Part shown: positions 33,517 to 59,266 of the stretch, piece by piece
How positions within the stretch are numbered: the first letter of the stretch is position 1
How the letters are laid out: each line of letters starts with the position of its first letter
From: an uncultured SAR86 cluster bacterium
Lineage (GTDB): Bacteria > Pseudomonadota > Gammaproteobacteria > Magnimaribacterales > Magnimaribacteraceae
DNA length: 64,000 nt
Assembly: GCA_902606175.1 (NCBI GenBank)
Contig: CACLEZ010000001.1
Coordinates: forward strand, 62,001-126,000
Direction of reading: 5' to 3'
Program-made: the position numbers and the translations under genes
Notes under the pieces: generated by a model
Seen by the model: only the letters and a program-made list of their open reading frames with translations
The model's database searches: none
Told to the model about the DNA's origin: nothing

Positions 33517-36500
33517 TTAACCCTTTGAAACAAATCGACCAGTGAAAGATCTTTTGAAGAAATTAGTAATTCTAATAGGGAAGAATCTCACGGTATCAGA
33601 GAAAGCCAGAGCACAAGGTGTGACTACTAAAGTTAGGACAGTCGCGACTGTTAATCCAACAACAAGTGAGCCGGCCATTTGTTCCCAAAAACTCGTTATG
33701 TAAGAACCAGTTTTTATAGTCCTATCTATTAAATCAATGCTATAACCTAAAGCAATTGGCAACAGCCCGGCGATAGTTGTAAATGAGGTCAAGAATACTG
33801 GTCTCAATCTTAAGATCGCACTTCTTAGTGCTAAAGATTTAGTCGAGGAACCTGGATTATTTCTTTTTAAAAGATTGAAGGTGTCAATTAAAACAATATT
33901 GTTGTTGACCACAATTCCAGCCAACGCAACACAACTTATTCCTGTTTGAAGTGTGCTGAATGATCTATCAAGCACTAAAAGGGATATGAAGACACCACCA
34001 AATGATAATAGGATTGCTGATAAAACAATGTTTGCTTGATAAAAGCTATTAAATTGAGCGACTAAAACTATTAGCATTACGAAGAGCATAGCTATAAATC
34101 CTAAAACAAGGAAATCGGCAGCTTCTTGGTTATATTTATCAAAACCATCATCTGAAACAGTTACTCCTCTTCCTAAGTCGGCAGTCTCTAGCCAATCTTT
34201 GACCTTTTTTATCTGCACTGAAGGTATTGCTCCTTCAACTGTTCTAGCTGAGAGGCCATGAACTCTTTTCCCATCTTTTCTGCTGATACTTTTTGTTGCA
34301 GGCTTGATAGTTGTATCAACAAAACTGCTTACAGGTACTAAGCCTTTAGCAGTTTGTACATTCAAATTACCAAGTTGGTCTATATTTCTTTCCGACTTGG
34401 GAAATCTAATTCTAATATCAACTTCTCTATCCAGATTTAAAGGACGATATTCTCCTACCTTAATACCATTTGTAACCATTTGAACCGAGGCACCTACATC
34501 ACTAAGACCGGCTCCATATTGAGCTGCTTTTGTCCTATTTATTTCTAGCTCCCACTCTATACCTCTGTTTACTGTCGTGTCTTCAATATCTATAAAACTG
34601 CCGAGTCCTTCTACAAATGTCCTTATTTTTTTTACCGCCAAGACTAGGGCTTGTTCGTTATCACCGCTTACATTTAGCTGGAGTGGTTTACCTATCGGCG
34701 GCCCACCTTCTTCAGCTTCTACTTGAACTATATATCCTGAAGTATCATCGAATTTTGATCTCAGAAGATCCATAATTTCAAATCCATCTAAATCAGATAC
34801 AGCATCATCCTCTGCCCAAAAATCTACAAACATACCTCCAACCCTGTCTGATGAACCAGAACGTCTCCCCAATCCTCGACTACCACCTGAATTCGACCAG
34901 ACTGAAAGCATCTCTATTTCTTCCACATCAAGGATTTTTTGTTCTGCATCTATTGCAATATCTCTTATTTCATCAACAGCTAAATTTCCACGAGCCAGAA
35001 TATCCACCTCTGCAAATTGAGGAGCGACTGTTGGAAAGTAAACTATGCCTTTACCGTGATGTGACCATAGGCCTATGCATAAGACTATCGCCGCAAGTAT
35101 GATGGTTATTGTTTGCCCTGGTGTATCTAGATATTGATTAATTTTTCTTGCGTACACCCCTGAGGCACCAGTCAAACTTAATGGATCCGAAGACTCTAAT
35201 TGTCTTGTATTATTTACCTCTTGTTCTGTCTGCTTAGCTAAACCACCAAACATCGCACCCAATATCGGTGCAAAAATAAGTGAGTAGAGTAATGATCCAA
35301 CTAAAACACAGAATACTGTTATGGGCATATCTCTAATGAAAGCACCAAATCCAGGCATGAACATTAAGGGTGTGAAAGCTATCAATGTGGTAGTTGTTGA
35401 CGACAATACTGGCCAGAACATTCTGGTTGCGGCTGCTGTGTAAGCCTCAACTCTATTCATACCTTCTGCTAGTTTTCTATCAGCATATTCTGTAACAACT
35501 ATAGAGCCATCTATTGTCATACCCATCGATATGAGCATCCCAAACATAACCATAAAATTGAATTCTTTATCTAAAATAAATAAAACTAGTAAGGCAAATA
35601 GATATGAAAAAGGAATTGCCATTCCTACCAACATTGACGTCCTAAAACCCAAAGCGGCTAGTACAACTATCATAACAAGTGCTATTGATGTTAGAACATT
35701 TCCTTGCAATTCTGAGATCATTTGAAGGGCGAACTGAGAATCATCACGAACAAAGTTAACACTGACTCCCTCTGGAAAGTTTTCAACTTCCTCTTCAACC
35801 ATATTTCGAATATCAGTAACAGTATCAATAATATTTGTACCGAGACGTTTTTGAACATCAATTGAAAGTGATTGTTGACCATTAATTCTGGAGTAGCCGC
35901 CTCTATCTTTAAAAGTTAAGCTCACGTCCGCAACATCTTTTAAAGTTACAACTGAGTTACCTGAAACCTTTATAGGTAATGTTTCAATATCTTCTAAGGT
36001 AGAAAAAACACTTGGGACATTAACTGCAAATCTTCCGCTTCCAGTGTCTTGAAATCCTGCAGGTATGACTCGGTTATTATTTGATACTGCTTGATAAAGT
36101 TGATTCATCGAAATGCCATAAGACTCAAGCTTACTTTTATCAACTATTGCTTCTATAAGGTCTTCAGGTACACCGTTTAGTTCCGCCTGAAGTACATTTG
36201 GGTGAGTCTCAATCAGGTCTTGAAGATCTTGCGTCAGATTTACCAGAACTCTCTGAGGAAGAATATCGCTCGCTACGCTAATTGTGAGTATGGGATTATC
36301 AGATGTAGTAAATTCCCTTATGGTTGGTTCTCTAGCATCCAAAGGTAATTCGGCTCTAGCTTCATCTACCTTAACTCTTACATCATAGAGCGCTTCATCT
36401 ATATCTACGTCTTGGTCAAATTCTACGACAACAGCTGAATAACCTGTTTGGGAAATAGACCTTATATCAGTGACTCCCGAAATAGTTCTTAAGGCATTTT

Positions 36501-36705
36501 CAAGTGGCTTAGCTAATAATCTTTCTGAATCTTCAGGAGAAACTCCCTCATAGCCAACCCCTACATATGCGCCAGGAAAATTTATATCTGGCTCTGTAGC
36601 CTTAGGTAAATAATTGAGTGCAAAAACTCCTGAAAATAATATCAGTAGCAGAATACTTAATGAAGTTCTGCTTTTATATATAGCCCCTCTAATAAAGCTT
36701 CTCAT
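33517..36705 (-). CDS. RND-family efflux permease
   Basis: Inner-membrane proton-driven transporter (1062 residues) of the AcrB/HAE-1-like superfamily. TM1 spans residues 15-32, followed by the PEDSERLLAKPLENALR porter-domain signature and a mirror-image second half from about residue 530. TM4 reads MGMTIDGSIVVTEYADRK, so only Asp399 of the Asp-Asp relay pair of AcrB is present (Gly400 follows), and TM10 has GIVVNNNIVLID in place of the Lys. These features mark a known RND subgroup rather than a broken protein. It overlaps the membrane-fusion gene by four bases. No TolC-like gene is in the window. Confidence 0.92.
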   Translation of the reverse strand: MRSFIRGAIYKSRTSLSILLLILFSGVFALNYLPKATEPDINFPGAYVGVGYEGVSPEDSERLLAKPLENALRTISGVTDIRSISQTGYSAVVVEFDQDVDIDEALYDVRVKVDEARAELPLDAREPTIREFTTSDNPILTISVASDILPQRVLVNLTQDLQDLIETHPNVLQAELNGVPEDLIEAIVDKSKLESYGISMNQLYQAVSNNNRVIPAGFQDTGSGRFAVNVPSVFSTLEDIETLPIKVSGNSVVTLKDVADVSLTFKDRGGYSRINGQQSLSIDVQKRLGTNIIDTVTDIRNMVEEEVENFPEGVSVNFVRDDSQFALQMISELQGNVLTSIALVMIVVLAALGFRTSMLVGMAIPFSYLFALLVLFILDKEFNFMVMFGMLISMGMTIDGSIVVTEYADRKLAEGMNRVEAYTAAATRMFWPVLSSTTTTLIAFTPLMFMPGFGAFIRDMPITVFCVLVGSLLYSLIFAPILGAMFGGLAKQTEQEVNNTRQLESSDPLSLTGASGVYARKINQYLDTPGQTITIILAAIVLCIGLWSHHGKGIVYFPTVAPQFAEVDILARGNLAVDEIRDIAIDAEQKILDVEEIEMLSVWSNSGGSRGLGRRSGSSDRVGGMFVDFWAEDDAVSDLDGFEIMDLLRSKFDDTSGYIVQVEAEEGGPPIGKPLQLNVSGDNEQALVLAVKKIRTFVEGLGSFIDIEDTTVNRGIEWELEINRTKAAQYGAGLSDVGASVQMVTNGIKVGEYRPLNLDREVDIRIRFPKSERNIDQLGNLNVQTAKGLVPVSSFVDTTIKPATKSISRKDGKRVHGLSARTVEGAIPSVQIKKVKDWLETADLGRGVTVSDDGFDKYNQEAADFLVLGFIAMLFVMLIVLVAQFNSFYQANIVLSAILLSFGGVFISLLVLDRSFSTLQTGISCVALAGIVVNNNIVLIDTFNLLKRNNPGSSTKSLALRSAILRLRPVFLTSFTTIAGLLPIALGYSIDLIDRTIKTGSYITSFWEQMAGSLVVGLTVATVLTLVVTPCALAFSDTVRFFPIRITNFFKRSFTGRFVSKG

Positions 36706-37607
36706 GCTTCAGGGGCAGGGGACTCCTTAACGTTTACGGTCTGCCCTTGAAAAACATATTCTTGGCCGAGAGTTATTATCCGTGCTTCTTCACCTAAACC
36801 TGAGACCCACATACCATTACTTGTGTCTTCTAATATTTTGATTTCTTTAAACTGCACTTTGTTATCTGAAGTTACTGTTCTGATACCTAATTTTCCTTGG
36901 TCATTTAAGGAAAGTATTGCTGGTGAAATTTTATGAGCAGGTTCTTCTTTACCTCTTATATAAATTTCAGCTGAAACTCCATCTCGAATTGTTCTATCGG
37001 CATTATTAACACTTATCTCAACCCTGAATGTTCTAGTATTTTTGTCAGCTGAGGAAGCTATGAAAGTGACTTCACCTGAAATAAATCTACCAGAAATTAA
37101 CTTTGCTGAAGCTTCAGATCCTAATTGTATTTGAGCGATATCCTTTTCTGCAATATCTGCAACTAGCAACATTGGATCAGGATCGATTAACGATGCACAA
37201 ACAGCTCCTGTATTAAGGAAATCTCCTTCATCCACTCTTAAACTCTCTAAATAACCTGAAAAAGGGGCAACTATCTTTGGATAAGCTTCTCTTCCAGCTA
37301 TGTATAATTGGCAAATTAAGTCTCCTTCTTCGACGAAATCTCCTTGCTTAACCGGACTGGATATAACTCTTCCGCTGATTTCAGCTCTGACTTGAACAAA
37401 TTTGTCAGCTTCAGTAAATCCGCTTGATTTAAGAATTTGGGATTGGTCTGTTGCTTTACTATTGATTATAGTTACAGAGGACAGAGTGTCTAAAGATGAA
37501 GAGTTCTTTTTAAAATTTTCCTCTTCAACAAGACTTCCAGAGATCATCCATATAACTATGAAGGAGCCGCATATTGCAGCTGTTTTGTATGTTTGTTTAA
37601 TTTTCAT
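36702..37607 (-). CDS. RND efflux periplasmic adaptor (membrane fusion protein)
   Basis: Links the inner-membrane permease to an outer-membrane channel. An N-terminal membrane segment (AAICGSFIVIWMISGS, residues 10-25) is followed by a barrel-sandwich (lipoyl) domain, VRAEISGRVISSPVKQGDFVEEGD near 82-105 and IVAPFSGYLESLRVDEGD near 118-135. A beta-barrel domain comes next. The long coiled-coil hairpin of AcrA-type adaptors is nearly absent, giving only 301 residues. It overlaps the permease gene by four bases and is preceded by a strong promoter-operator. Confidence 0.9.
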   Translation of the reverse strand: MKIKQTYKTAAICGSFIVIWMISGSLVEEENFKKNSSSLDTLSSVTIINSKATDQSQILKSSGFTEADKFVQVRAEISGRVISSPVKQGDFVEEGDLICQLYIAGREAYPKIVAPFSGYLESLRVDEGDFLNTGAVCASLIDPDPMLLVADIAEKDIAQIQLGSEASAKLISGRFISGEVTFIASSADKNTRTFRVEISVNNADRTIRDGVSAEIYIRGKEEPAHKISPAILSLNDQGKLGIRTVTSDNKVQFKEIKILEDTSNGMWVSGLGEEARIITLGQEYVFQGQTVNVKESPAPEA

Positions 37608-37659: not shown

Positions 37660-38706
37660 CTAGATTTGGTGCTTTTCTTTGAGTTTTTTAAAATTTTCCT
37701 GAAGTGTTTCAGCATCCAACTTTTTTGAAGGTTCTGTAGAGCTTCTATCCTGTATTTCCCAACTAGATTCGATTCTCTTATCGATTTGTTTGGATAATTG
37801 AGGTGTTTGACCTTTATTTGTCCTTTCCCACTGATATTTAACATGCTGAAGAAATTTACTATTCCAAGAGTTTAGAGATTGTCCTGATTCCTTCCAGTAC
37901 ATTACGAACTCAAGCTTTGCATTTTCTGCAAATTCTTTAGGTATATCTGTCATTTCAAGAATATCAAAGAAATCTGAATTAGGGTTCCAATCTGAACTCA
38001 TGACTGATGGTGAATTATCATTTTCTTTAATATCTTTAAATCTTCCCCATTGCCTTCTTATATGTGCAATAAATTTGCTATTCCAAATGTCAGATTCTTC
38101 CTTACGTTCTGTCCAATACAATACAAATTCAGGAACTTCCTTATCAATGAAATCTTCATTTATCCCTGAATTTATTAGTATTTCCTTAGCATCCATATCC
38201 GGAACCCAATTTTTATCAATGGGCTTAGTTTTCATCTTTTTGTTATCTTCGACTTCCTTATGACGCCACTTTTTGATAACAAATCTCAGAAATTTGACTC
38301 CCCAGTTTATATCCTTCTCATTACGCTCCTGATTAAGTTTCTTGAAATCATCAATCTGGAGATTTGCAAAATCTTCTGGAATGCCATACTCGTTAATTTG
38401 ATCTATGACATCTTTATCTGGCACCCATTTATCTCTATTGCTAGTAGAAGTTTTTTTATCATGTTTTTTTGATGAAAAATGAGGTATTCCATCAACGACT
38501 GTCTCGTTGATAAGACCTGTTTTAATGAGTTGAGTAAGGACTTCCAGGATTCTTTCATTTGACCAAAATGAAATATCTGAACAAATTTGTTTCATCGAAA
38601 CTCGATCATGAAGGCGCTCTTCCTGTCTTAAATGCTCGAGTAAAACTGCTTCATCCAAGCCTATTGTGTTGGCAATTTCTTTAGAGAAAGTTATCTTTGA
38701 AGTCAT
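37660..38706 (-). CDS. Protein with winged-helix-like N terminus and three DnaT-like repeats
   Basis: A 348-residue cytoplasmic protein. Residues 1-78 look like a helical winged-helix region. Three copies of a DnaT-like module follow, each starting W-x-P and ending in a conserved Trp: 94-147, 167-220 and 240-293. Start-to-start spacing is exactly 73 residues and each copy spans 54. Copies 2 and 3 share EFV-x-YW and WNSKF; copy 1 is more diverged (NWGVKFLRFVIKKW). DnaT, the primosome protein that helps reload DnaB, carries one such domain. A DnaT-like or single-strand-DNA role is inference. It is followed by the RND operon promoter. Confidence 0.8.
   Translation of the reverse strand: MTSKITFSKEIANTIGLDEAVLLEHLRQEERLHDRVSMKQICSDISFWSNERILEVLTQLIKTGLINETVVDGIPHFSSKKHDKKTSTSNRDKWVPDKDVIDQINEYGIPEDFANLQIDDFKKLNQERNEKDINWGVKFLRFVIKKWRHKEVEDNKKMKTKPIDKNWVPDMDAKEILINSGINEDFIDKEVPEFVLYWTERKEESDIWNSKFIAHIRRQWGRFKDIKENDNSPSVMSSDWNPNSDFFDILEMTDIPKEFAENAKLEFVMYWKESGQSLNSWNSKFLQHVKYQWERTNKGQTPQLSKQIDKRIESSWEIQDRSSTEPSKKLDAETLQENFKKLKEKHQI
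37828..38427 (-). repeat. Three in-frame 73-codon repeats within the DnaT-like gene
   Basis: Coding repeats at 38266-38427, 38047-38208 and 37828-37989 specify the three DnaT-like modules, each offset by exactly 219 bases. The protein pattern W-x-P ... F/W ... W-x-x-K-F ... W recurs at fixed distance, while the DNA has diverged. This fits old duplication with conserved length rather than recent tandem copying. Confidence 0.75.
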
Positions 38707-38760: not shown

Positions 38761-39810
38761 TTAGTTATTTCTAATTCTTACAGAATCAGCTAATTTGTGA
38801 AGACAATCTTTAGTATCTTGCCAGTCGATACAAGCATCAGTAATACTTTTCCCATATGTGAGGTTATCTAGATCATCGGCCTTTTGATTGCCTTCCTCAA
38901 TATTACTTTCTATCATGACTCCAGTAATTCTCGTCTCACCTGACTTAATCTGAGAGGCAATGTTATCGCATACTTCAATCTGTTTTTTGTGCTGTTTACT
39001 ACTATTTCCATGACTCATATCGACCATGATTGAATCTTCAAGAGAATTTGATTTTAGAATCTCAGAAGTTTGATCTATAAACTCTTTTTCATAATTAGGG
39101 TCTTTTCCGCCCCGCAGAATAACGTGACAGTCTTTGTTACCAGAAGAAGAAAATATTGCAGCTTTACCTTCTTTTGTGACGGACAGAAATTTGTGAGGAT
39201 GGAGGGCAGACCCTATTGCATCAGCAGCTACTTGAATGCCTCCGTTCGTTGCGTTTTTAAAGCCAATAGGACAGGAAGAACCGGATGCAAGTTCCCTATG
39301 GATTTGACTTTCTGTAGTTCTAGCTCCAATTGCTCCCCAGGATATTAAATCAGCTATGTATTGGGGTGTTATAACATCTAAAAATTCTGTTCCAGCAGGC
39401 ATACCCAGATCATTTATATCTCTTAAGAGTTGTCTTGATACTGATAAACCTTTATCAATATCAAAAGAATTATTCAAATCTGGATCATTGATAAGGCCTT
39501 TCCAGCCAACTGTTGTTCTTGGTTTTTCAAAATAAACTCTCATGACAATCAGAAGTTCTTTTTCTAGAGCTTTCTTTTGCTCGAGCAAAAGGTTTGCATA
39601 TTCTAAAGCCGACTCAGTATCATGGATAGAACAAGGTCCAACAACGACTGCTAATCTTTGATCCTTTTTGCTAAGTATTTCAGAAAACTCTTTTCTTGAA
39701 TTAAAAACTGTTTGGGAGGAGATATCTGATATCGGTTGTTTGTCCAATAAAGAGCTTGCAGAAATTACTTCCTGCCTTCCTGAGATTCTTAAATCACTTG
39801 TCTTATGCAT
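38761..39810 (-). CDS. 3-deoxy-7-phosphoheptulonate (DAHP) synthase, type I
   Basis: First enzyme of the shikimate pathway, condensing PEP with erythrose 4-phosphate. I start at the ATG 39810 (349 residues), where MHKTSDLRISGRQEVI aligns with the N terminus of AroG/AroF/AroH. The open frame extends 26 residues further upstream with a hydrophobic, non-homologous sequence. VVGPCSIHD, MRVYFEKPRTTVGWKG and SDLISWGAIGARTTESQ-like segments confirm the family. The feedback specificity (Phe, Tyr or Trp type) is not assignable by eye. It diverges from nadE; downstream aromatic genes are at 51-57 kb. Confidence 0.93.
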   Translation of the reverse strand: MHKTSDLRISGRQEVISASSLLDKQPISDISSQTVFNSRKEFSEILSKKDQRLAVVVGPCSIHDTESALEYANLLLEQKKALEKELLIVMRVYFEKPRTTVGWKGLINDPDLNNSFDIDKGLSVSRQLLRDINDLGMPAGTEFLDVITPQYIADLISWGAIGARTTESQIHRELASGSSCPIGFKNATNGGIQVAADAIGSALHPHKFLSVTKEGKAAIFSSSGNKDCHVILRGGKDPNYEKEFIDQTSEILKSNSLEDSIMVDMSHGNSSKQHKKQIEVCDNIASQIKSGETRITGVMIESNIEEGNQKADDLDNLTYGKSITDACIDWQDTKDCLHKLADSVRIRNN

Positions 39811-39905
39811 GTTTAAAATTTTACCGGAGGTGCATTCTACATATATTGTCGTCAGAATAAAGCACGAAAGTGTTAAGATATAGATCAATTAAGTACTTTA
39901 TCTTC

Positions 39906-48903: not shown

Positions 48904-51447
48904 ATGGGTGAAATTGCTGCTAAGGAAATTGTTCCTGTAGACATAGGACAAGAGCTCAAACAATCTTATCTTGATTATGCCATGAGCGTAATTGTTGGAA
49001 GGGCCTTGCCTGACGCAAGAGATGGATTAAAACCTGTCCATCGCAGAGTCCTCTATGCAATGCACGTCTTGAATAATGATTTTGGTCGACCGCACAAGAA
49101 GTCAGCCAGAATAGTTGGCGATGTAATTGGTAAATATCATCCTCATGGAGACAGTGCCGCTTACGAAACTATTGTAAGAATGGCTCAGTGGTGGTCTCTT
49201 CGATATCCTTTAGTAGATGGACAAGGAAATTTTGGATCTATGGATGGAGATGGACCGGCTGCACAAAGATACACAGAAGTTAGAATGGCCCGAATATCTC
49301 AGGAGTTATTAGCAGATCTTGAAAAGGAAACAGTTAATTATGTAGAGAATTATGATGGCACTGAAATGATGCCAGAAGTTTTACCCACTAAGATTCCAAA
49401 TATGCTCGTGAATGGTTCTGCAGGAATAGCTGTAGGGATGGCTACAAATATGGCTCCTCATAATCTGAATGAGGCCCTGTCTGCGTGTTTAGCCTATATA
49501 GACAATCCAGAAATTTCAGTTCAAGAGCTAATGGAGTTAATACCTGGACCAGATTTTCCTACAGGAGCAATCATTAATGGTAAGGCAGGAATCGTAAGCG
49601 CTTATGAAACAGGTAGAGGGCGAGTAAAAATAAGAGCTAAAACTGAATTTGAAGATGAAGAAAAAGATAAAGCAAAAATTATTATTACGGAGATGCCTTA
49701 CCAAGTAGTAAAAGCTAGACTGATTGAAAAAATAGCTGAACTTTCTAGGGATAAAAAGTTGGAAGGCATAAGAGATATAAGAGATGAATCTGATAAGGAT
49801 GGCATTAGAGTAGTTATTGAACTGAAATCAGGTCAAATTCCAGATGTAGTTCTCAATAATCTATATTCACAAACTCAAATGCAAACTGTTTTTGGCATTA
49901 ATAATGTTGCGTTAATTGATGGAGAGCCAAAGTTACTGAATCTTAAATCAATACTTTCAGTTTTCTTCAACCATAGAAAAGAAGTTGTTTCTCGAAGAAC
50001 ATTTTTTGATTTAAGAAAAGCAAAAGAAAGAGGCCATATCTTGGAAGGTCTTACAATTGCATTGGCTAATATTGACGAGATGATAGACCTAATTAAGAAA
50101 TCAAAAGAAGGATCTGAAGCAAAGAAAAAATTACTCGCAAAAAAATGGAAGCCAGGAAAAATAATTGCAATGCTTGAGAAGGCTGGACCGGATGCTTGTA
50201 AAATTGATGTAACTGATAATTCCGTTGGACTAATCGGGAAGACTTATCAACTATCTGAACAGCAAGCTCAAGCTATATTGGACATGAGATTGCAGAGGCT
50301 TACTGGCCTTGAGCAAGATAAGCTGATTAAAGAGTACGAGGAAATAATAGATCACATAACATATTTGCTAGAGATACTTGGAGACTCCGAAAGATTGATC
50401 GAGGTAGTGAAAGAAGAACTTTTGGAAGTTCAAGAAAAATATAAAGATGATAGAAGAACCGAAATACAAGATTCAGTTGCTGACTTAACAGAAGCTGATC
50501 TGATTACTCCCGAAGACAGAGTAGTGACCATTTCTCATGAAGGTTATGCCAAGACTCAACCACTTGAAGAATATAGAGCACAGAGAAGAGGAGGAACTGG
50601 AAAGACTGCAGCATCAGTTAAAGATGAAGATTTTGTAGAACAACTATTAGTAGCAAATACCCATACAACACTTCTATGCTTTTCTAACTTAGGACAAGTT
50701 TACTGGTTGAAAGTATATGAGATTCCTTCTGCTGGACGAGCTGCGAAAGGTCGACCTCTAGTCAATCTGATACAACTTAGCGAGGGTGAGAGAATAACAA
50801 GTATGGTGCCCGTGGAGGAATACGATGACCAACATTTCATTCTTATGGCTACTCGAGCTGGGACAGTCAAAAAGACTGTCTTAACAGAATTTCAAAATCA
50901 AAGAAAAGGCGGTAAAAGAGCAATAACTTTAGAAGGTGATGATGAGCTTGTTGGAACCACTGTTACTGATGGTAGCAAATTTGTTATGTTGGTTACCAAT
51001 GCCGGAAAGGCAGCTCATTTTTCTGAAACAGAAGTAAGATCTATGGGAAGAACAGCTAAAGGAGTTAGAGGGATCAAGCTGGAGAAAGAACAGCATGTAA
51101 TTTCCTTAATAATTCCAGAGGAAGAGGCTAGCATCTTTACAGTAAGCGAAAACGGATATGGAAAACGTTCAAGATCTATAGATTTCAGAAAAACTAGACG
51201 AGGAGCAAAGGGAGTTATTGCAATGCAAATTTCTGAAAGAAATGGTCAGTTAATTGGAGCTGCTCAAGTCACAGAAGATGATGAATTAATGCTTATATCG
51301 GATAAAGGTATGCTGGTGAGAACTAGAGTTGCAGAGGTTAATATTATTGGAAGAAATACCCAAGGCGTTACTGTGATAAGGCTAAAAGATTCAGAAAAGT
51401 TAATTAGCATTGCACCTATAAGTGAAGAGTTCATAGGAGATGAATAA
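48904..51447 (+). CDS. gyrA: GyrA, DNA gyrase subunit A
   Basis: Breakage-reunion subunit of DNA gyrase. The quinolone-resistance region [17 protein letters not shown] contains Ser84 and Glu88 (E. coli Ser83, Asp87), and catalytic Tyr123 is in QRYTEVRM. The C-terminal domain has repeated beta-pinwheel blades from about residue 515, including the QRRGGTGK GyrA box near 558. At 847 residues it is usual length. The stop overlaps serC as TAATG. Confidence 0.98.
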
Positions 51448-52526
51448 TGCCAAGAAAATTTAATTTTGGTGCTGGCCCGGCAACAATGCCTGAATCTGTT
51501 TTAACAGAGGTTCAAGAGGAGCTATTAGATTGGAATGGTCTAGGATTGTCTGTAATGGAAATAAGTCACAGAAGTCCAGAGTTCATAGAAATTGCTAAAC
51601 AAGCCGAAAGTGACTTTCGAGATTTATTATCTATTTCTGAAAATTATGCTGTTCTATTTACACACGGTGGAGCAACTATGCAAAATGCAATGGTCCCCCT
51701 CAATTTAGCATCTCCGGAAGGAAATGCTGATTATGTTAATAGTGGACACTGGGCAAAACGTTCCATCAAAGAGGCCGAAAGATACACCAATGTTAATATA
51801 GCTGCTACCTCTGAAGAAGAAGATTTTAAATACTTTCCTTCTCAAGAATCTTGGAAATTTTCTAGTAATTCATCTTATGTGCATTACACCCCTAATGAGA
51901 CTATTGGTGGTTTGTGTTTAAGAACACTACACAAATGTGATGTACCTGTTGTAGCTGATTATTCTTCAGGTATTCTTTCTGAACCAATTGACATAAGTAA
52001 ATTCTCCTTAATTTATGGAGGAGCTCAAAAAAATATCGGTCCTTCAGGCCTCGGTTTTGTGATCATAAAGAAAGACTTATTAGGAAAGGCGCAACCTATA
52101 ACTCCCAATCTTTTGAATTACACCTTAATTAGTGAAGGCGAGTCTATGTCTAATACTCCTCCAACTTTTGCTTGGTATGTTGCTGGTAAGGTATTTAAAT
52201 GGCTTAAATCTATGGGAGGAGTCGAAGCTATTTCAATAATAAATAATAGAAAAGCCAAAAAATTATACGACTATATCGATTCATCAGATTTCTATTCAAA
52301 TAATATAAATGTAGAAAATAGATCGATTATGAATGTTCCCTTTTTACTAAGGAACGATGATTTAAATGATAAGTTCCTTGAGGTATCCAAAAAAGCTGGT
52401 TTGTTGGCTTTGAAGGGTCACAGATCTGTTGGAGGTATGAGAGCTAGTATATATAACGGTCTGCCTGAAGAAGCAGTAGATGCCTTAATTGAATTTATGG
52501 ATTTCTTTCAGAGAGAACATAGTTAA
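51447..52526 (+). CDS. serC: SerC, phosphoserine aminotransferase
   Basis: PLP enzyme making phosphoserine from 3-phosphohydroxypyruvate; also acts in the PLP pathway. The N terminus RKFNFGAGPATMPESVL, THGGATMQNAMVP near residue 73, and the PLP-lysine in YGGAQKNIGPSGLGFVII near 196 are diagnostic. The end GGMRASIYNGLPEEAVDAL is also typical. The 359-residue length is normal. It is coupled to gyrA and six bases before pheA, the conserved order. Confidence 0.97.
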   Translation: MPRKFNFGAGPATMPESVLTEVQEELLDWNGLGLSVMEISHRSPEFIEIAKQAESDFRDLLSISENYAVLFTHGGATMQNAMVPLNLASPEGNADYVNSGHWAKRSIKEAERYTNVNIAATSEEEDFKYFPSQESWKFSSNSSYVHYTPNETIGGLCLRTLHKCDVPVVADYSSGILSEPIDISKFSLIYGGAQKNIGPSGLGFVIIKKDLLGKAQPITPNLLNYTLISEGESMSNTPPTFAWYVAGKVFKWLKSMGGVEAISIINNRKAKKLYDYIDSSDFYSNNINVENRSIMNVPFLLRNDDLNDKFLEVSKKAGLLALKGHRSVGGMRASIYNGLPEEAVDALIEFMDFFQREHS

Positions 52527-52532
52527 TTTGAG

Positions 52533-53609
52533 ATGTCTAAAAACAGTGATCTATCTAAAATCAGAGATAAAATTGATTCTATTGATAATAAAATACTATC
52601 TCTACTAAATGATCGTGCAGAACTAGCTATTCAAGCTGGGCAGGCTAAACAAGATTCTATTAAATATAAACCCGCCAGAGAATCTTCAATACTAAGTAGG
52701 GTAATGGATTTAAATGAAGGGCCTTTAGAGGCAGAACAAGTTAAAAATGTTTTTAATGAGATAATTTCGAGTTGTAGATCAACTGAATCGACTTTCACAA
52801 TATCTTATTTAGGTCCAGAAGGGACATTTTCAGAATCAGCACTTCAAGACCAATTTGGTAAATCAGTGGATAAGATTCCTGAGGAAACTATACGCTCAAT
52901 TTTTGAATCTGTTCATCGTGGAGAATCTGATTTTGGTATTGTGCCAATAGAAAACTCTACTGAAGGGTCTGTAAATTCTACTTTGGATTGTCTAGGCGAG
53001 TTCAATCTTAAAATTTGTGGCGAGATAGAAATGGAAATCCATCATAATCTATTGGGATATAACAAACCATTGCCCAAAGATGGATTTGAGATTCACGCTC
53101 ATGAACAAACTCTCGGACAATGCAGAGCATGGTTAGAATCTTATTGTCCCGGAGTGAAATTAGTAAGTGTAAGTAGTAATGCACAAGCAGCATCAAATGT
53201 TACAGAAGACAATACAGTCATTGCTATTGCAGGAGATCTTGCCGCAAAGAAATATGGTTTAGATATACTTAGTAAGGATATTGAAGATTATTCGAGCAAT
53301 ACAACGCGTTTTTTAACAATAGGCAATATAGAATCGGGACAAACTGATTCTGATAAAACATCTATTATGGCTACAACAAAGAATGAAGAGGGTGCTCTCT
53401 ATTCTTTACTGGAGCCTTTTAATAAATTAAGTGTCAATTTGTCTCACTTGACTTATAGGCCCTCAAAAGTAAATAAGTGGCAGTATTCGTTTTTTATAGA
53501 CTTTGATGGACACAAAGATGAGAGTCTATTAAAAGAATTATTACTAAATCTAGCTAGTAAGGAGATCGAAGTTAAGATTCTCGGTTCTTACCCAAAATCA
53601 TTAGGTTAA
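52533..53609 (+). CDS. pheA: PheA, chorismate mutase/prephenate dehydratase
   Basis: Bifunctional enzyme from chorismate to phenylpyruvate. Residues 1-90 are an AroQ-type mutase (LSKIRDKIDSIDNKILSLLNDRAELA). From about 93 the dehydratase follows, with ISYLGPEGTFSESAL, FGIVPIENSTEGSVN near 135 and SSNTTRFLTIG near 260. A C-terminal ACT domain (SIMATTKNEEGALYSLLEPF near 275) binds phenylalanine for feedback, with the LTYRPSK segment near 307. The 358 residues match the Pseudomonas type. Confidence 0.96.
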   Translation: MSKNSDLSKIRDKIDSIDNKILSLLNDRAELAIQAGQAKQDSIKYKPARESSILSRVMDLNEGPLEAEQVKNVFNEIISSCRSTESTFTISYLGPEGTFSESALQDQFGKSVDKIPEETIRSIFESVHRGESDFGIVPIENSTEGSVNSTLDCLGEFNLKICGEIEMEIHHNLLGYNKPLPKDGFEIHAHEQTLGQCRAWLESYCPGVKLVSVSSNAQAASNVTEDNTVIAIAGDLAAKKYGLDILSKDIEDYSSNTTRFLTIGNIESGQTDSDKTSIMATTKNEEGALYSLLEPFNKLSVNLSHLTYRPSKVNKWQYSFFIDFDGHKDESLLKELLLNLASKEIEVKILGSYPKSLG

Positions 53610-53612
53610 TTT

Positions 53613-54701
53613 ATGGATTTAAAAAAATTAGTTAACAAAGGAGTAGATAGTCTCAGTCCTTATGAGCCTGGCAAGCCAATTGAGGATCTAGAAAGGGATC
53701 TTGGAATCAAAAATGCAATTAAATTAGCCAGTAATGAGAATCCTATAGGCCCAAGTCCAAAGGTTTTGCAGTCAATAGATGCAATATTGAAAGAAACCCA
53801 TAGATATCCAGATGGGAATGCTACTAGGTTGAAAGACAGTATTGCTAAAAAATTTAATACTTCACCAAATCAAGTGACAATCGGTAATGGATCTAATGAC
53901 ATAATCGAGTTTATCGCTCGCATTTTTTTAGGGCCTGATGATAGTGCTATTTATTCAGAACATGCATTTGCTGTTTATCCATTAGTGGTAAGAGCTGTCG
54001 GAGCAAAGGGTATAGAAGTACCAGCTAAAGACTTTTCCCATGACCTGGAAGCGATGCTTAATGCTATAGAAGAAAATACAAAATTAATCTTTATAGCTAA
54101 TCCCAATAATCCAACTGGTTCTTTTGTTGAACTTGATGAGTTGATAGATTTTTTAGAAAAGGTGCCTGAAGATATAATAATATTATTAGATCAAGCCTAT
54201 TACGACTACTCATCGTTTGAAACTAGAGATGCTGATTTTGATATCTTAAAAAAATTTCCAAATCTCGTAATGAGTAGAAGTTTTTCAAAAGCTTATGGAC
54301 TTGCTGGATTTAGAGTTGGTTACTCCGTGTCGTCAGAAGGTATGGCTAATTACCTTAATAGAGTTAGACAACCATTTAATGCTAATTCACTTGCTCTTTA
54401 TGCTGCTGAGAAAGCTTTGGAAGATGATGAATACATGATCCAATGCCTCCAACTTAACTCTGATCAAAAGAAAGTACTTTATGAGGGTTTGAATTCTCAA
54501 GGATACGAATATCTTCCCAGTAGAGGAAACTTTATATCTTTTGACTGCAAGAAAGATTCAAGCGAGGCCTATAATAAATTACTTAATGAAGGAGTAATAG
54601 TTAGATCTTTGGGTGTATATAAAATGCCCAATTTTTTAAGGGTCTCCATCGGCTTGCCAGAAGAAAACCTTCTTTTTCTAGAGAAATTAAAACTAACTTA
54701 G
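53613..54701 (+). CDS. hisC: HisC, histidinol-phosphate/aromatic aminotransferase
   Basis: PLP aminotransferase of the HisC family. SNENPIGPSPKVL near residue 39, GNGSNDIIEFIARI near 90, FIANPNNPTGSFV near 160, LDQAYYDY near 193 and the PLP-lysine SRSFSKAYGLAGFRVGY near 222 are visible. The 362-residue length is normal. Embedded between pheA and tyrA, it may serve phenylalanine/tyrosine transamination as well as histidine synthesis. No other his synthesis enzyme is in the window except HisZ. Confidence 0.94.
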   Translation: MDLKKLVNKGVDSLSPYEPGKPIEDLERDLGIKNAIKLASNENPIGPSPKVLQSIDAILKETHRYPDGNATRLKDSIAKKFNTSPNQVTIGNGSNDIIEFIARIFLGPDDSAIYSEHAFAVYPLVVRAVGAKGIEVPAKDFSHDLEAMLNAIEENTKLIFIANPNNPTGSFVELDELIDFLEKVPEDIIILLDQAYYDYSSFETRDADFDILKKFPNLVMSRSFSKAYGLAGFRVGYSVSSEGMANYLNRVRQPFNANSLALYAAEKALEDDEYMIQCLQLNSDQKKVLYEGLNSQGYEYLPSRGNFISFDCKKDSSEAYNKLLNEGVIVRSLGVYKMPNFLRVSIGLPEENLLFLEKLKLT

Positions 54702-54707
54702 AATTAG

Positions 54708-55574
54708 ATGAGCAATATAAAAGAATTTGAAAATGTCTTAATCGTTGGTTTAGGACTAATCGGCGGATCGATTGCAAAGAAAATCAAAGATATAGATTAT
54801 TCTGCAAATGTGTATGGATTTGAAAAAAATCAAGAAATACTTAAGGAAGCAAAAAAAAAAGGTCTTATAACCAATGGTAAGGTAGTTGATCTTAAAGACT
54901 CTAAAAACCTATTAGTAATATTTTGTGTCCCAGTTTTGTCCTTCAGGCCGGCTTTGAACTCTGTCAAAAAATTCTTACCTTCTCAAAATATAGTATTTAC
55001 TGACACTCTGAGTGCAAAAACTGAAATTTTTAATACCTTATCAAATGAGTTTAATGGCATTTTAGGCAATTTTGTTTTATCTCATCCAATCGCAGGTTCT
55101 GAAAAAAGCAGTTTATATAATTCCAAGAAATCTCTATTTGAAAATCAAGTGGTTGTAATTTCACCTCACGAAAAAAACAATCAGGAAGATATTGATAAAG
55201 TCATTAATTTTTGGGGATTGTTAGGATCCTCTTCAAAGATTCTTTCCTACAAAGATCATGACTTCTTGTTTTCAAAAACAAGTCATTTACCGCACGTAAT
55301 ATCTTATTCTCTTACCGAGAGCTTATTTAAAAGTTTAGGAGAAAGAACTTTTGATTTCTCAGGTGGAAGTCTTGAGGATTACACACGTATTGCATCTAGC
55401 GACCCATTAATGTGGAAAGACATCTTGATTTCTAATCATCAAAATATTTTAGATTCCATAGAAGATTTTGAAGAAAGTCTTGCAAGCTTAAAAGACCTTA
55501 TTAAAAATAAAGATGAGAAAGCTTTAGTTGATTACTTTAATAAGGTAAAGATATTGAGAGATAATTCAGTCTAA
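54708..55574 (+). CDS. tyrA: TyrA, prephenate (arogenate) dehydrogenase
   Basis: NAD(P)-dependent dehydrogenase of tyrosine synthesis. The Rossmann motif VLIVGLGLIGGSIAKKIKD is at residues 10-28, with HPIAGSEKSS near 126, KTSHLPHVISYSL near 190 and SGGSLEDYTRIASSDPLMW near 222. It is monofunctional (288 residues), with no mutase or ACT domain. In Pseudomonas tyrA and aroA are fused; here a stop and four bases separate them. Prephenate versus arogenate preference is not readable. Confidence 0.94.
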   Translation: MSNIKEFENVLIVGLGLIGGSIAKKIKDIDYSANVYGFEKNQEILKEAKKKGLITNGKVVDLKDSKNLLVIFCVPVLSFRPALNSVKKFLPSQNIVFTDTLSAKTEIFNTLSNEFNGILGNFVLSHPIAGSEKSSLYNSKKSLFENQVVVISPHEKNNQEDIDKVINFWGLLGSSSKILSYKDHDFLFSKTSHLPHVISYSLTESLFKSLGERTFDFSGGSLEDYTRIASSDPLMWKDILISNHQNILDSIEDFEESLASLKDLIKNKDEKALVDYFNKVKILRDNSV

Positions 55575-55578
55575 TCTT

Positions 55579-56913
55579 ATGAACTTTAAAATTAAGAAAG
55601 GAAAGGGTGTGAGGGGCGAAATAACAATTCCTGGAGATAAGTCTATATCCCATAGGTCGATAATGTGTGCATCCCTTGCAGAAGGCAAATCAAAAATTTA
55701 TGGATTCTTAGAAGGAGAAGATTGTTTAGCCACCAAAATTGCCTTCAAGGACATGGGTATAAATTTCGAGTCAAATAATGATGAAATAGTAGTACATGGT
55801 TCAGGTTTATACGGATTGAAGAAACCAAAACAAGAGATTAATTTGGGAAATTCTGGAACATCTATTCGATTGCTGAGTGGAATATTATCTGCCCAGAAGT
55901 TTTCTTCCACTCTTATAGGAGATGAGTCTTTATCATCTAGGCCTATGAATAGAATTATAGAACCTCTGTCTTTGATGGGTGCAAATATAAAGTCTCAAAA
56001 CTCTGGAAGACCGCCTTTAGAAATTGGTAAGTCAGATATACTTAATTCAATAAACTATGACCTTCCTATTGCAAGCGCTCAAGTGAAATCATGTATTTTA
56101 TTTGCAAGTCTTTACTCTAAAGGAAAGACTATTGTCAGAGAGAAACAAACAACTCGTAACCACACAGAAATAATGTTTAAGCAATTTGGAGTACCTTTGA
56201 GTATTCGAGATACCAACGGTGGAAGAGACATTGAAATGTATTCTCCATCATACTTAAAAAGCACAGAAATCGATATACCAGGAGACTTTTCTTCTGCAGC
56301 TTTCTTTATTTTGGCAGCATTGATAATTCCTAATTCAAATCTAATTATTAAAAACGTTGGTATGAACGAAACTCGTACAGCATTATTAAATGCCTTTCAG
56401 GAAATGGGTGCTGAGATAGATATTATTAACAAGACTGGAGAATTTGAACCTCGTGCTGATTTAAAAGTTAAATTCTCAAAACTAAAGGGTATAAATCTTG
56501 ATACCAAGTTAGTACCTAATTTGATAGATGAATTACCTGCCTTCTTTATCGCTGCAGCAATGTCATCAGGTTCAACTGCTGTGAGAAATGCAGAAGAATT
56601 ACGGCATAAAGAATCTGATAGATTAGAGGCTATGGGAGATGTTCTTGGGTCACTCGGTGTTGATTTTAATATGTATCATGATGGAATAGATATAAATGGT
56701 CTAGATGACAATAATGCTTTCAGTTCTTATACAGGAGGGATAATAGAATCTTTCAGTGATCATAGAATAGCAATGTCTTCTGCAATTGCTTGTAGTCTCT
56801 TTGATCAAGAATCAATTATTCTTAATACTGATAATGTAAATACTTCATTTCCTACATTTTTAAATATTTCAGAACAAGTAGGCTTAGATATTAGTTTGGA
56901 AGAGAGTTCATGA
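55579..56913 (+). CDS. aroA: AroA, EPSP synthase
   Basis: 3-phosphoshikimate 1-carboxyvinyltransferase of the shikimate pathway. N-terminal IPGDKSISHRSIMCASLAEG near residues 17-36, LGNSGTSIRLLSG near 89, RPMNRIIEPL near 117, IASAQVKSCILFASL near 165 and the HKESDRLEAM motif near 341 identify it. The RPM and SAQVKS forms resemble the class II group found also in Pseudomonas. At 444 residues length is typical. It overlaps cmk by four bases. Confidence 0.96.
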   Translation: MNFKIKKGKGVRGEITIPGDKSISHRSIMCASLAEGKSKIYGFLEGEDCLATKIAFKDMGINFESNNDEIVVHGSGLYGLKKPKQEINLGNSGTSIRLLSGILSAQKFSSTLIGDESLSSRPMNRIIEPLSLMGANIKSQNSGRPPLEIGKSDILNSINYDLPIASAQVKSCILFASLYSKGKTIVREKQTTRNHTEIMFKQFGVPLSIRDTNGGRDIEMYSPSYLKSTEIDIPGDFSSAAFFILAALIIPNSNLIIKNVGMNETRTALLNAFQEMGAEIDIINKTGEFEPRADLKVKFSKLKGINLDTKLVPNLIDELPAFFIAAAMSSGSTAVRNAEELRHKESDRLEAMGDVLGSLGVDFNMYHDGIDINGLDDNNAFSSYTGGIIESFSDHRIAMSSAIACSLFDQESIILNTDNVNTSFPTFLNISEQVGLDISLEESS

Positions 56914-57572
56914 TACCCGTTATAACGATTGATGGTCCAAGTGGTTCTGGAAAGGGAACAATTGCACAAATGTTGGCTCTTGAATTAGATTGGAATATTC
57001 TAGACAGTGGCGCTTTATACAGAACTTTGGCTTATTTTATGAAAGAAAATGCTATCGATATTGAAAATTTTAAAGAAAACCAAGATTTTTTGAAAAAGAG
57101 ATTTCATGTCTCCTTTGATCCTGGAATTCCCGGTGAGCCAGTAAGAGTATTATTTGAAAATAAAGATATTACTGCGATAGTTAGAACCGAAGAGATGGCT
57201 AAAATAACTTCTAATTTAGCTGCAGAACCAATAATTAGAGAGTTTATTAAGCCTTGTCAGAGAGACTTTATGACTGCCCCTGGTCTCATTGCAGATGGTA
57301 GAGATATGGGAACTGTCATTTTTTCCGATGCAAAATATAAAATCTTTCTTACAGCTTCCGCAGAAGAAAGAGCTAAAAGAAGACAAACACAGTTGAAAAG
57401 ACAGGGCTTGGAGGTTAACATGCGTTCCCTTTTACAAGAGTTAGAGGATAGGGATCGTAAAGATACGGAAAGAGAACATTCCCCGTTAATCCCCGCTGTA
57501 GACTCTGTGGTAATAGATACAAGTAATTTAAACCCTGAAGGAGTGGTAAAGGTAATAAAAACTTACCTTTAA
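56910..57572 (+). CDS. cmk: Cmk, cytidylate kinase
   Basis: Phosphorylates CMP/dCMP. The P-loop IDGPSGSGKGTIAQMLA is at residues 7-23, LDSGALYRTLA near 35 and ADGRDMGTVIFSDAKYKIFL near 128 form the nucleotide sites, and the lid has ERAKRRQTQLKRQG. The 220-residue length is standard. It lies between aroA (overlapping) and rpsA, as in most gammaproteobacteria. Confidence 0.97.
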   Translation: MIPVITIDGPSGSGKGTIAQMLALELDWNILDSGALYRTLAYFMKENAIDIENFKENQDFLKKRFHVSFDPGIPGEPVRVLFENKDITAIVRTEEMAKITSNLAAEPIIREFIKPCQRDFMTAPGLIADGRDMGTVIFSDAKYKIFLTASAEERAKRRQTQLKRQGLEVNMRSLLQELEDRDRKDTEREHSPLIPAVDSVVIDTSNLNPEGVVKVIKTYL

Positions 57573-57580
57573 ATAAGAAT

Positions 57581-59266
57581 ATGGCAGCAAGCTTTGAACA
57601 ATTATTAGATGAGAATTTAAGTACGGTAATTATGAAACAAGGCAGTCTTGTGACTGGTATTGTGATAGACATTTTAGACAATCATGTAGTGGTTCATGTG
57701 GGATTAAAATCTGAAGCAGTGGTTCAAGTATCTGAATTTTATAATGAATCAGGAGAGCTGGAACTAGAAATAGGAGACGAAGTTCAGTTAACCCTTGAGT
57801 CTATTGAAGATGGTCATGGAAATACACGAGTTTCAAGAGAAAAAGCTATCAAGCAAGAAGTATGGAAGAGAATAGAAGACAGCTTGGCTAATGAATCCAT
57901 ACTTAAGGGCCTTATCACGGGTTCTGTAAAGGGAGGTATGACTGTAGATGTTCAGGGTATTAAAGCTTTTTTACCTGGATCGTTAGCTGAAGTTATGCCC
58001 ACAAAAGATCTAGAACATTTAGTAGGAAACTACGAAGAGTTCAAAGTAATCAAATTAGATAAAGATAAAAATAATGTAGTACTTTCTAGGAAAGCAGTTC
58101 TTCAGGAAGCAAATTCTGAAGAGAGAGAAAAATTGCTCTCAACATTAGCTGAAGGTCAAGTAATCAAAGGAGTTGTTAAAAACTTAACTGATTACGGAGC
58201 GTTTGTTGATTTAGGCGGAATAGATGGACTTCTTCATATTACAGATATTTCTTGGAGTAGAATCAACCATCCATCTGAGGCGATTAATATTGGAGAAAAG
58301 CTGGATGTAAAAATTATAAAATATGATCCTGAGCAGAAGAAGGTTTCTCTCGGTATGAAACAACTGATAGATGATCCTTGGGTTGGTATAGGATCAAAGT
58401 TTCCATTAAATACCTCTGTGATGGCAACCGTAACAAACCTAACTGACTATGGATTCTTCGCAGAGATAGAACAGGGAGTTGAAGGACTAGTTCATGTTTC
58501 AGAAATAGATTGGACAAATAAGAATATTCATCCTTCTAAAGTGGTGCAATTGAAAGATCAAGTAGAGGTAATGATTCTTGAAGTCGATGAAGAAAAGAGA
58601 AGAATTTCATTAGGTCTGAAGCAACTCAAAGAAAATCCATGGCAAGTTTTCGAGCATACTCATAATGAAGGAGATAAAGTAACCGGAGCTATCAAATCTA
58701 TTACCGATTTTGGAGTCTTCATAGAGCTAGATGGAGGAATTGATGGCTTAGTTCATCTCTCTGATATTGCTTGGGATGAAAGTGAAGAATCTGCAAGGTC
58801 ACTAAACAAAGGAGAACTAGTCGAAGCAATAGTTCTTTCTATTGAGGCTGATAGAGAAAGAATATCACTTGGAATAAAACAATTACTTTCTGATAGTTTT
58901 GGAGATTACGTAGATGCTAATAAAAAAGGTTCAAGGGTAAATGCGAAGATTATAGGATCTACAGAAGACAGAGTAGATCTTGAGTTGAGTGTAGATGTCA
59001 AAGGTTACCTGCCTATGAAAGATTATACAAATTCTATGTCAGATACTCCTCTAGAAGAGGGTGCTGAAATCGAAGTTGTTATTGCCAATATCAACAGAAA
59101 AGATCGAGAAATAATTTTGTCTCTTAGGGCTTTAGAAAAACAAGAAGAAAAAAGCGCTCTCAAAGATAATGCACTTAAGAATAAAGAAATAGAAGAAGCA
59201 ACAAAGTCTAATATCGGAGATCTTATTAAAGCAGAAATGCAAGATTCCGATAAAGAAGATGAATAA
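57581..59266 (+). CDS. rpsA: RpsA, 30S ribosomal protein S1
   Basis: RNA-binding ribosomal protein needed for initiation on structured mRNAs. Six S1 (OB-fold) domains span the 561 residues; domains 3-5 show repeated signatures such as LTDYGAFVDLGGIDGLLHI, VTNLTDYGFFAEIEQGVEGL and KSITDFGVFIELDGGIDGLV. The last domains are more diverged, as usual, and the tail is acidic/lysine-rich. It overlaps ihfB by eight bases. Confidence 0.98.
   Translation: MAASFEQLLDENLSTVIMKQGSLVTGIVIDILDNHVVVHVGLKSEAVVQVSEFYNESGELELEIGDEVQLTLESIEDGHGNTRVSREKAIKQEVWKRIEDSLANESILKGLITGSVKGGMTVDVQGIKAFLPGSLAEVMPTKDLEHLVGNYEEFKVIKLDKDKNNVVLSRKAVLQEANSEEREKLLSTLAEGQVIKGVVKNLTDYGAFVDLGGIDGLLHITDISWSRINHPSEAINIGEKLDVKIIKYDPEQKKVSLGMKQLIDDPWVGIGSKFPLNTSVMATVTNLTDYGFFAEIEQGVEGLVHVSEIDWTNKNIHPSKVVQLKDQVEVMILEVDEEKRRISLGLKQLKENPWQVFEHTHNEGDKVTGAIKSITDFGVFIELDGGIDGLVHLSDIAWDESEESARSLNKGELVEAIVLSIEADRERISLGIKQLLSDSFGDYVDANKKGSRVNAKIIGSTEDRVDLELSVDVKGYLPMKDYTNSMSDTPLEEGAEIEVVIANINRKDREIILSLRALEKQEEKSALKDNALKNKEIEEATKSNIGDLIKAEMQDSDKEDE

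Follow-up and report, generated by a model that had tools for sequence, protein, structure and literature searches.

DopC and DopE, attributed to Brezellec et al. 2017, are said to form a putative third replicative helicase matchmaker. In phage lambda, the O protein binds P through its C-terminal part. E. coli DnaT has one DnaT domain and an N-terminal domain that differs from the one described below, and its gene adjoins dnaC, which follows it. DciA, another proposed helicase operator, is not known to have an ATPase domain. Excerpts of PMC5109545 (Brezellec 2016) describe Cellvibrionales without both dna[CI] and dciA and leave the substitute open, and DopE is listed as a loader family in excerpts of PMC13326638 (2026), which cites the 2017 DopC/DopE paper. 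According to PMC6391071, a cryo-EM study of DnaB with lambda P, every P subunit extends a lasso whose helix, the last one built in P, reaches the linker helix of DnaB; this lasso helix is assigned to the P C-terminus, and the direction of the chain is called tentative. DnaC docks at that DnaB site through one small helix, and DciA uses the same site, as stated in excerpts of PMC9912922.

The dopC-like gene studied here occupies 37660..38706 on the minus strand of the window, the whole 64,000-nucleotide stretch analysed, from an uncultured SAR86 cluster bacterium. The ORF, with its start at 38706 and its end at 37660, encodes 348 amino acids that comprise a predicted winged helix, three DnaT modules, and a loader-like C-terminal tail, as judged from the ORF, Pfam, and an AF2 model. 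The initial annotation had given this interval, which does hold the ORF; we add that the gene is on the minus strand, and that the plus strand read in frame contains many stops. On both sides, the neighbours are conserved by ORF and synteny, and all are on the minus strand. Upstream is what we take to be an aroG-type DAHP synthase (38761..39888), and downstream are genes that presumably encode the membrane-fusion protein (MFP) of an RND pump (36702..37607) and the RND transporter (33517..36705). The stop codon of the gene is separated from the MFP start by 52 bases. The window genome measures 1.32 Mb and is 80.7% complete, and its DnaT matches are solely the three modules of this protein. Elsewhere in the window (48904-59266) is a gyrA gene followed by a run that, judging by the protein sequences, resembles serC-pheA-hisC-tyrA-aroA-cmk-rpsA.

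Our comparisons draw on 41 relatives in four SAR86 families labelled f1 to f4, of which f1 is the family of the window (25 f1, 6 f2, 5 f3, and 5 f4 genomes). Many genomes are incomplete, and most SAR86 records are metagenome-assembled or single-cell genomes.

The DnaT family link, which had been proposed from pattern recognition, is borne out by Pfam: PF17948 (DnaT) matches the window protein in three stretches with an E value of 1.2e-54, scoring 182 bits where the cut-off is 25. Module 1 (38248..38433, minus strand) scores 43.2 bits, and modules 2 (38038..38223, minus) and 3 (37813..38001, minus) score 74.7 and 82.5 bits. Tryptophans are at residues 94/147, 167/220, and 240/293, as the initial annotation had stated. 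Self-identity at an offset of 73 is 46 residues, compared with at most 39 at any offset from 40 to 119 in 2000 shuffles, and the next best offset in the real sequence gives 27. Over 63 columns, modules 1 and 2 share 18 identities, modules 1 and 3 share 16, and modules 2 and 3 share 22. The period that had been called exact is 73 in the window protein, but relatives vary: of 53 aligned rows, window included, 40 show a spacing of 73 between modules 1 and 2 and the other 13 one of 70-86; between modules 2 and 3, 40 rows again show 73, and 13 show 71-74. The 73-residue period is thus well conserved and not strictly exact.

We judged the pocket residues against the contacts listed for E. coli DnaT in PMC4132743. 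Modules 2 and 3 of the window protein keep the base-pocket residues (F194, Y197, W198, and K211; F267, Y270, W271, and K284), and the corresponding Phe, Tyr, Trp, and Lys are kept in both modules of all 22 f1 rows, apart from a change of Lys to Arg in two module 2 rows. The tryptophan frame that the initial annotation had seen extends to all three modules, but module 1 lacks the Tyr-Trp stacking pair of the DnaT base pocket. The pocket Phe and Lys of module 1 are retained in the 22 f1 rows, and the Tyr-Trp pair is present in none of them (0/22); the window has L124 and N125 at this position, one of the f1 rows keeps the Trp, and two have Phe-Tyr. Outside SAR86, 21 of 24 rows possess the module 1 pair. 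A simple three-fold single-strand-DNA binder seems unlikely for the f1 protein because module 1 of f1 is without the base-stacking pair. The loader role, one of the options given in the initial annotation, is now the best supported.

None of the solved DnaT structures was matched at E 0.01 by a profile of 53 DopC rows, and no solved structure of any kind gave a profile match for DopC or DopE at that threshold; single-sequence matches of the window protein to three solved DnaT chains were weak (E 0.75-0.96). E. coli DnaT resembles the window protein in having the DnaT domain, the pocket residues seen in modules 2 and 3, and, when relatives are considered, a loader-adjacent gene, and scores 15 bits against the DopC profile. 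The window protein departs from E. coli DnaT in its predicted winged helix, its three modules in place of one domain, and its tail; no DnaC-type partner is seen for it, and its gene neighbours are aroG and an RND pump rather than dnaC.

The initial annotation had described the N terminus as winged-helix-like, and the predicted model agrees: AF2 secondary structure indicates a winged-helix domain at residues 9-79 (38470..38682, minus strand). Winged-helix chains are among the top Foldseek matches of the N-terminus, none significant (E at least 0.019), and residues 5-79 weakly match the phage replication initiation family phrog_11233 (E 3e-4). The AF2 model of the window protein has a pTM of 0.35. 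A fold search of the PDB with this model gave no match reaching E 0.001; eight viral models, unnamed or uncharacterised, were found at E below 0.001.

The DnaT domain is found in 38 of the 41 relatives, with three matches in 23/25 f1 genomes, two in 6/6 f2 genomes, two or three in 5/5 f3 genomes, and two in 4/5 f4 genomes. A sample of the class yielded matches in 6/184 genomes, among them two genomes outside the order, G043 and G081, with three modules each; the order of G081 is represented by one genome in the collection. When named genomes were scanned, 357 stretches were confirmed and 80 loci retained; these belong to SAR86, Gilvimarinus, Marinimicrobium, Simiduia, Porticoccaceae, Halieaceae, Thalassolituus, and others. 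Among these 80 kept loci, the closest are from uncultured SAR86 cluster bacteria, up to 92% identical. We counted loci L042-L068 as f1 by identity and gene order, which leaves L069-L121 as 53 non-f1 loci. We reject the idea of an isolated, new three-module DnaT on the basis of this homologue survey: the same architecture is conserved in distant gammaproteobacteria, usually beside a lambda-P-type loader gene. No title among the literature matches listed concerns a multi-module DnaT, or DnaT in SAR86.

The window protein is not a DnaT orthologue; it represents a conserved gammaproteobacterial protein with a predicted winged helix and two or three DnaT modules. From its position, partner, and distribution, we take it to be DopC. 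A winged helix followed by three modules is likely the old state, because three are also present in the distant genomes G043 and G081, and the two-module families f2 and f4 are then likely reductions that lost one module. PHROG replication-initiation families match DopC proteins. A tblastn search with Gilvimarinus DopC for a phage origin gave zero matches among 50,697 phage records. Separately, genome G106 carries a 285-amino-acid protein (L027, 1309-2163 of its minus strand and beyond) with one DnaT module at a borderline score; it adjoins a gene that reads as a DnaB-like helicase, the arrangement has the look of a phage-type replication module, and G106 has DciA.

A lambda-P-like gene, dopE, overlaps or directly follows dopC in 52 of the 53 non-f1 named loci. 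Three examples match Pfam PF06992 (Phage_lambda_P) with E values of 3e-6 to 2e-9, and two match phrog_109, 'P-like helicase loader', at 4e-23 and 3e-18. This dopC-dopE layout repeats the gene order of lambda O-P and of E. coli dnaT-dnaC. Carriers of DopC have no detectable DciA, the usual loader: PF05258 matches 0/65 of them (25 SAR86 genomes with DnaT matches, G043, G081, and 38 named genomes). In the class sample, DciA is present in 150/184 genomes and in 0/5 of the carriers among these, and 29 of 179 non-carriers are also without a DciA match. We attach no probability to this contrast because related genomes are not independent. DciA and the window protein are alike in a proposed helicase-operator role without an ATPase domain, and differ in that they share no domain.

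For loaders of the DnaC/DnaI type, no near-full-length PF01695 match was found in the 26 SAR86 genomes tested, which gave partial AAA+ core matches only; judging by ORF lengths, most of these probably belong to DnaA-like, Lon-like, and similar proteins. Near-full-length PF01695 proteins do occur in G081, G106, and G250, and G081 and G250 hold DopC besides. In the window genome (80.7% complete), no DciA-, DnaC/DnaI-, or lambda-P-type loader is detectable. Neither PF05258 nor PF06992 matches the window protein in the Pfam scan, and only its short tail resembles DopE/P.

The absence of dopE from f1 and f4 was examined with a profile built from 14 DopE proteins. It matched all f2 (6/6) and f3 (5/5) genomes and none of f1 (0/25) or f4 (0/5), and the f1 zero includes G005 (one contig, 95%) and G024 (96%). 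The f4 genome G033 (one contig, 93% complete) has no match to DnaT, DopE, or DciA, and in this genome 12 stretches, about a quarter of the whole, are without a match to DopC or its usual neighbours. PF06992 alone detected 4 of the 11 f2/f3 DopE genes, against 11 of 11 for the family profile. Among the synteny loci examined (5 f1, 6 f2, 6 f3, and 4 f4), the gene order aroG-dopC-[dopE]-MFP-RND holds in all four families; dopE sits between dopC and the MFP gene in the loader-bearing f2 and f3 relatives, and is exactly what is missing in f1 and f4.

The most informative part of the protein is its C-terminal tail, which the initial annotation overlooked. The DnaT modules are followed by a predicted disordered linker at residues 316-330 (37717..37761, minus strand), with pLDDT below 50 and a sequence that varies across f1, and then by the tail, residues 330-348 (37663..37719, minus strand), recognised by matrix tests and the AF2 model, in which a helix is predicted at 332-345 with a pLDDT of about 70. 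Toward the end of the f1 tail, L342 and K345 are found in 22/22 rows and I348 in 20/22. DopC proteins of f1 and f4 continue beyond the Trp motif region and end, for example, in FKKLKEKHQI; an f2 DopE ends, for example, in LEKLRKKHQI. The model of one DopE shows the same layout as that of DopC, with a poorly ordered linker followed by a C-terminal helix at 184-198. By sequence, the f1/f4 DopC tail resembles the C-terminal helix of lambda-P-like loaders.

We quantified this resemblance with two scoring matrices. With a matrix made from 17 SAR86 DopE tails only, all 32 of the scored DopC proteins without DopE reach at least 9.2 and all 64 with DopE stay at or below 3.1. Composition-preserving shuffles of nine tails, which we picked from the 32, gave p values of 5e-5 to 0.025. 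A wider matrix from all DopE tails gives 5.3-15.7 for the 32 and at most 4.9 for 62 proteins with DopE. Its background consisted of 479 C-termini, one of which proved to be a DopE (G038); once this was set aside, the maximum among the 478 others was 9.0. Two of the four f4 tails (5.3 and 7.8) lie within this background range, and shuffles gave p values of 0.09-0.11 for these two; the wider-matrix shuffles covered eight tails, chosen by us out of 32. The tail is only about 15 residues long, and charged Lys/Leu-rich helices recur. Two loci were left out before the tail counts: L058, whose gene is cut at a contig end, and L083, which has no adjacent DopE and no tail, and is contrary to the pattern as a loader-less DopC. 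L161 and L162 are among the 64 in the SAR86-matrix test and were removed from the wider-matrix DopE set, having no recognisable tail, and from its DopC counts. The genome that contains L083, Halioglobus isolate NAT121 (G234), has two DopC genes, and the other one (L109) is accompanied by DopE.

In loader-bearing relatives, DopC often carries a Trp motif such as LTDRSW close to its C-terminus. What appears to be a remnant of it in the window protein is at residues 311-316 (37759..37776, minus strand), with W316 invariant in 53 rows. Lambda O matches the Trp motif with 9.7 bits, compared with a background maximum of 6.2 among 262 C-termini, and five DopE-less proteins of f1 and f4 that were tried score below zero. 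If DopC binds DopE as O binds P, such decay of the motif fits the loss of a partner. Lambda P aligns to the DopE profile with 39 bits over residues 22-226, through its C-terminal segment. No profile similarity was detected between lambda O and DopC; the common C-terminal Trp motif and the gene order are what connect them. The window protein differs from the lambda system in that O-like and P-like parts appear merged within it.

In a PriA tree with 25 SAR86 rows and an E. coli outgroup, f2 and f4 are set apart from f1, f3, and E. coli (100/98). The tree also joins f1 with f3 on a branch (93/91) that carries no star, and the program issued a warning about long branches. In agreement with the tree, only the f1 and f3 loci have nadE between aroG and scpA, and the number of modules (three versus two) fits as well. 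PriA is 653-662 amino acids long in nine of ten f2/f4 rows (689 in the remaining one; L180-L184 and L189-L193), versus 720-761 in the 15 f1/f3 rows (L169-L179 and L185-L188). Because f1 and f4 are not sister families, the sequences suggest that the loss of dopE and gain of a tail likely happened twice. A DopE of 147 amino acids in the f2 genome G037 (L152) is without the conserved WSHP core and keeps its tail, and so possibly represents a halfway state. The DopE of G043 (L161) is also shortened, to 169 amino acids, and has no WSHP core and a different end.

We consider it probable, from sequence comparison, that the window protein is a one-protein replicative-helicase matchmaker in which DnaT modules would hold single-stranded DNA while the tail docks DnaB. 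The ancestor would have relied on two proteins, DopC and DopE, in the manner of lambda O/P, and the tail would derive from the dopE gene, on two occasions, when the body of dopE was lost. This tail may bind the linker-helix/docking-helix site of DnaB. Modules 2 and 3 may each hold about two nucleotides, the number that E. coli DnaT84-153 binds per protomer in a spiral (excerpts of PMC4132743), and module 1 would be mainly structural, spacing the winged helix from modules 2 and 3. Recruitment to the origin or to stalled forks would fall to either the winged helix or DnaA. The wider proposal is that a fourth kind of bacterial helicase matchmaker, with no ATPase or loader domain, was made at least twice in SAR86 by deletion of the loader gene and fusion of its docking helix to a DnaT-repeat protein; we offer this tentatively, rating it a little short of even.

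The tail might alternatively have converged on a common DnaB docking site rather than come from the dopE gene. Excerpts of PMC9912922 have the unrelated DnaC and DciA both using that site, and we found no intermediate sequence joining dopC and dopE, but convergence seems unlikely given that the f1 and f4 tails resemble those of SAR86 DopE, that one deletion would fuse the tail since dopE lies directly behind dopC, and that the G037 DopE has kept its tail despite being shortened. Somewhat less likely again is that f1 DopC still works with a separate loader that has relocated or diverged beyond our profile, the tail making some other contact. Such loaders do diverge fast, as the difference between PF06992 and the family profile illustrates, and the window genome is incomplete; however, the 14-row profile recognises DopE in all genomes of f2 and f3 and in no f1 genome, G005 and G024 included, no gene fills the slot flanked by the conserved neighbours in the f1 and f4 loci examined, and the tail tracks the absence of DopE in all 96 scored proteins, which do not include L058 and the contrary L083.

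Two further readings concern the role of the whole protein. A replication-restart adaptor acting downstream of PriA like E. coli DnaT, and not an origin loader, would account for the DnaT domains and would suit the presence of PriA in 38/41 relatives and the placement of E. coli dnaT beside dnaC. We regard this as improbable, for E. coli DnaT relies on DnaC (excerpts of PMC4132743), a near-full-length DnaC-type match is lacking in the 26 SAR86 genomes, and the lambda-P-type pairing together with the lack of DciA matches points to the main loading step. That the protein is a transcription regulator of the winged-helix type whose repeats are decorative is very improbable indeed: many of the top PDB matches of the N-terminus are regulators, but none of these matches is significant, and the DnaT modules, the operon partner, and the genome distribution fit replication.

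The one-protein matchmaker that we favour is close to DopC/DopE, with which it shares a lambda-P-like second gene in relatives, Cellvibrionales-type genomes without a DciA match, and orthologues of the window protein in the first position. The difference, and the new part, is that in SAR86 f1, as in f4, the loader gene appears gone from its slot and DopC bears a DopE-like tail. How bacteria without DciA, DnaC, and DnaI load the replicative helicase is a question named as open in excerpts of PMC5109545. The present data carry the DopC/DopE answer over to SAR86, reveal DopC to be built of DnaT modules, and connect lambda O/P, DopC/DopE, and DnaT/DnaC, gene pairs that share one layout. They also suggest that a very small loading device may exist in SAR86, in which a docking helix of a predicted 14 residues is carried on a predicted single-strand-DNA-binding protein.
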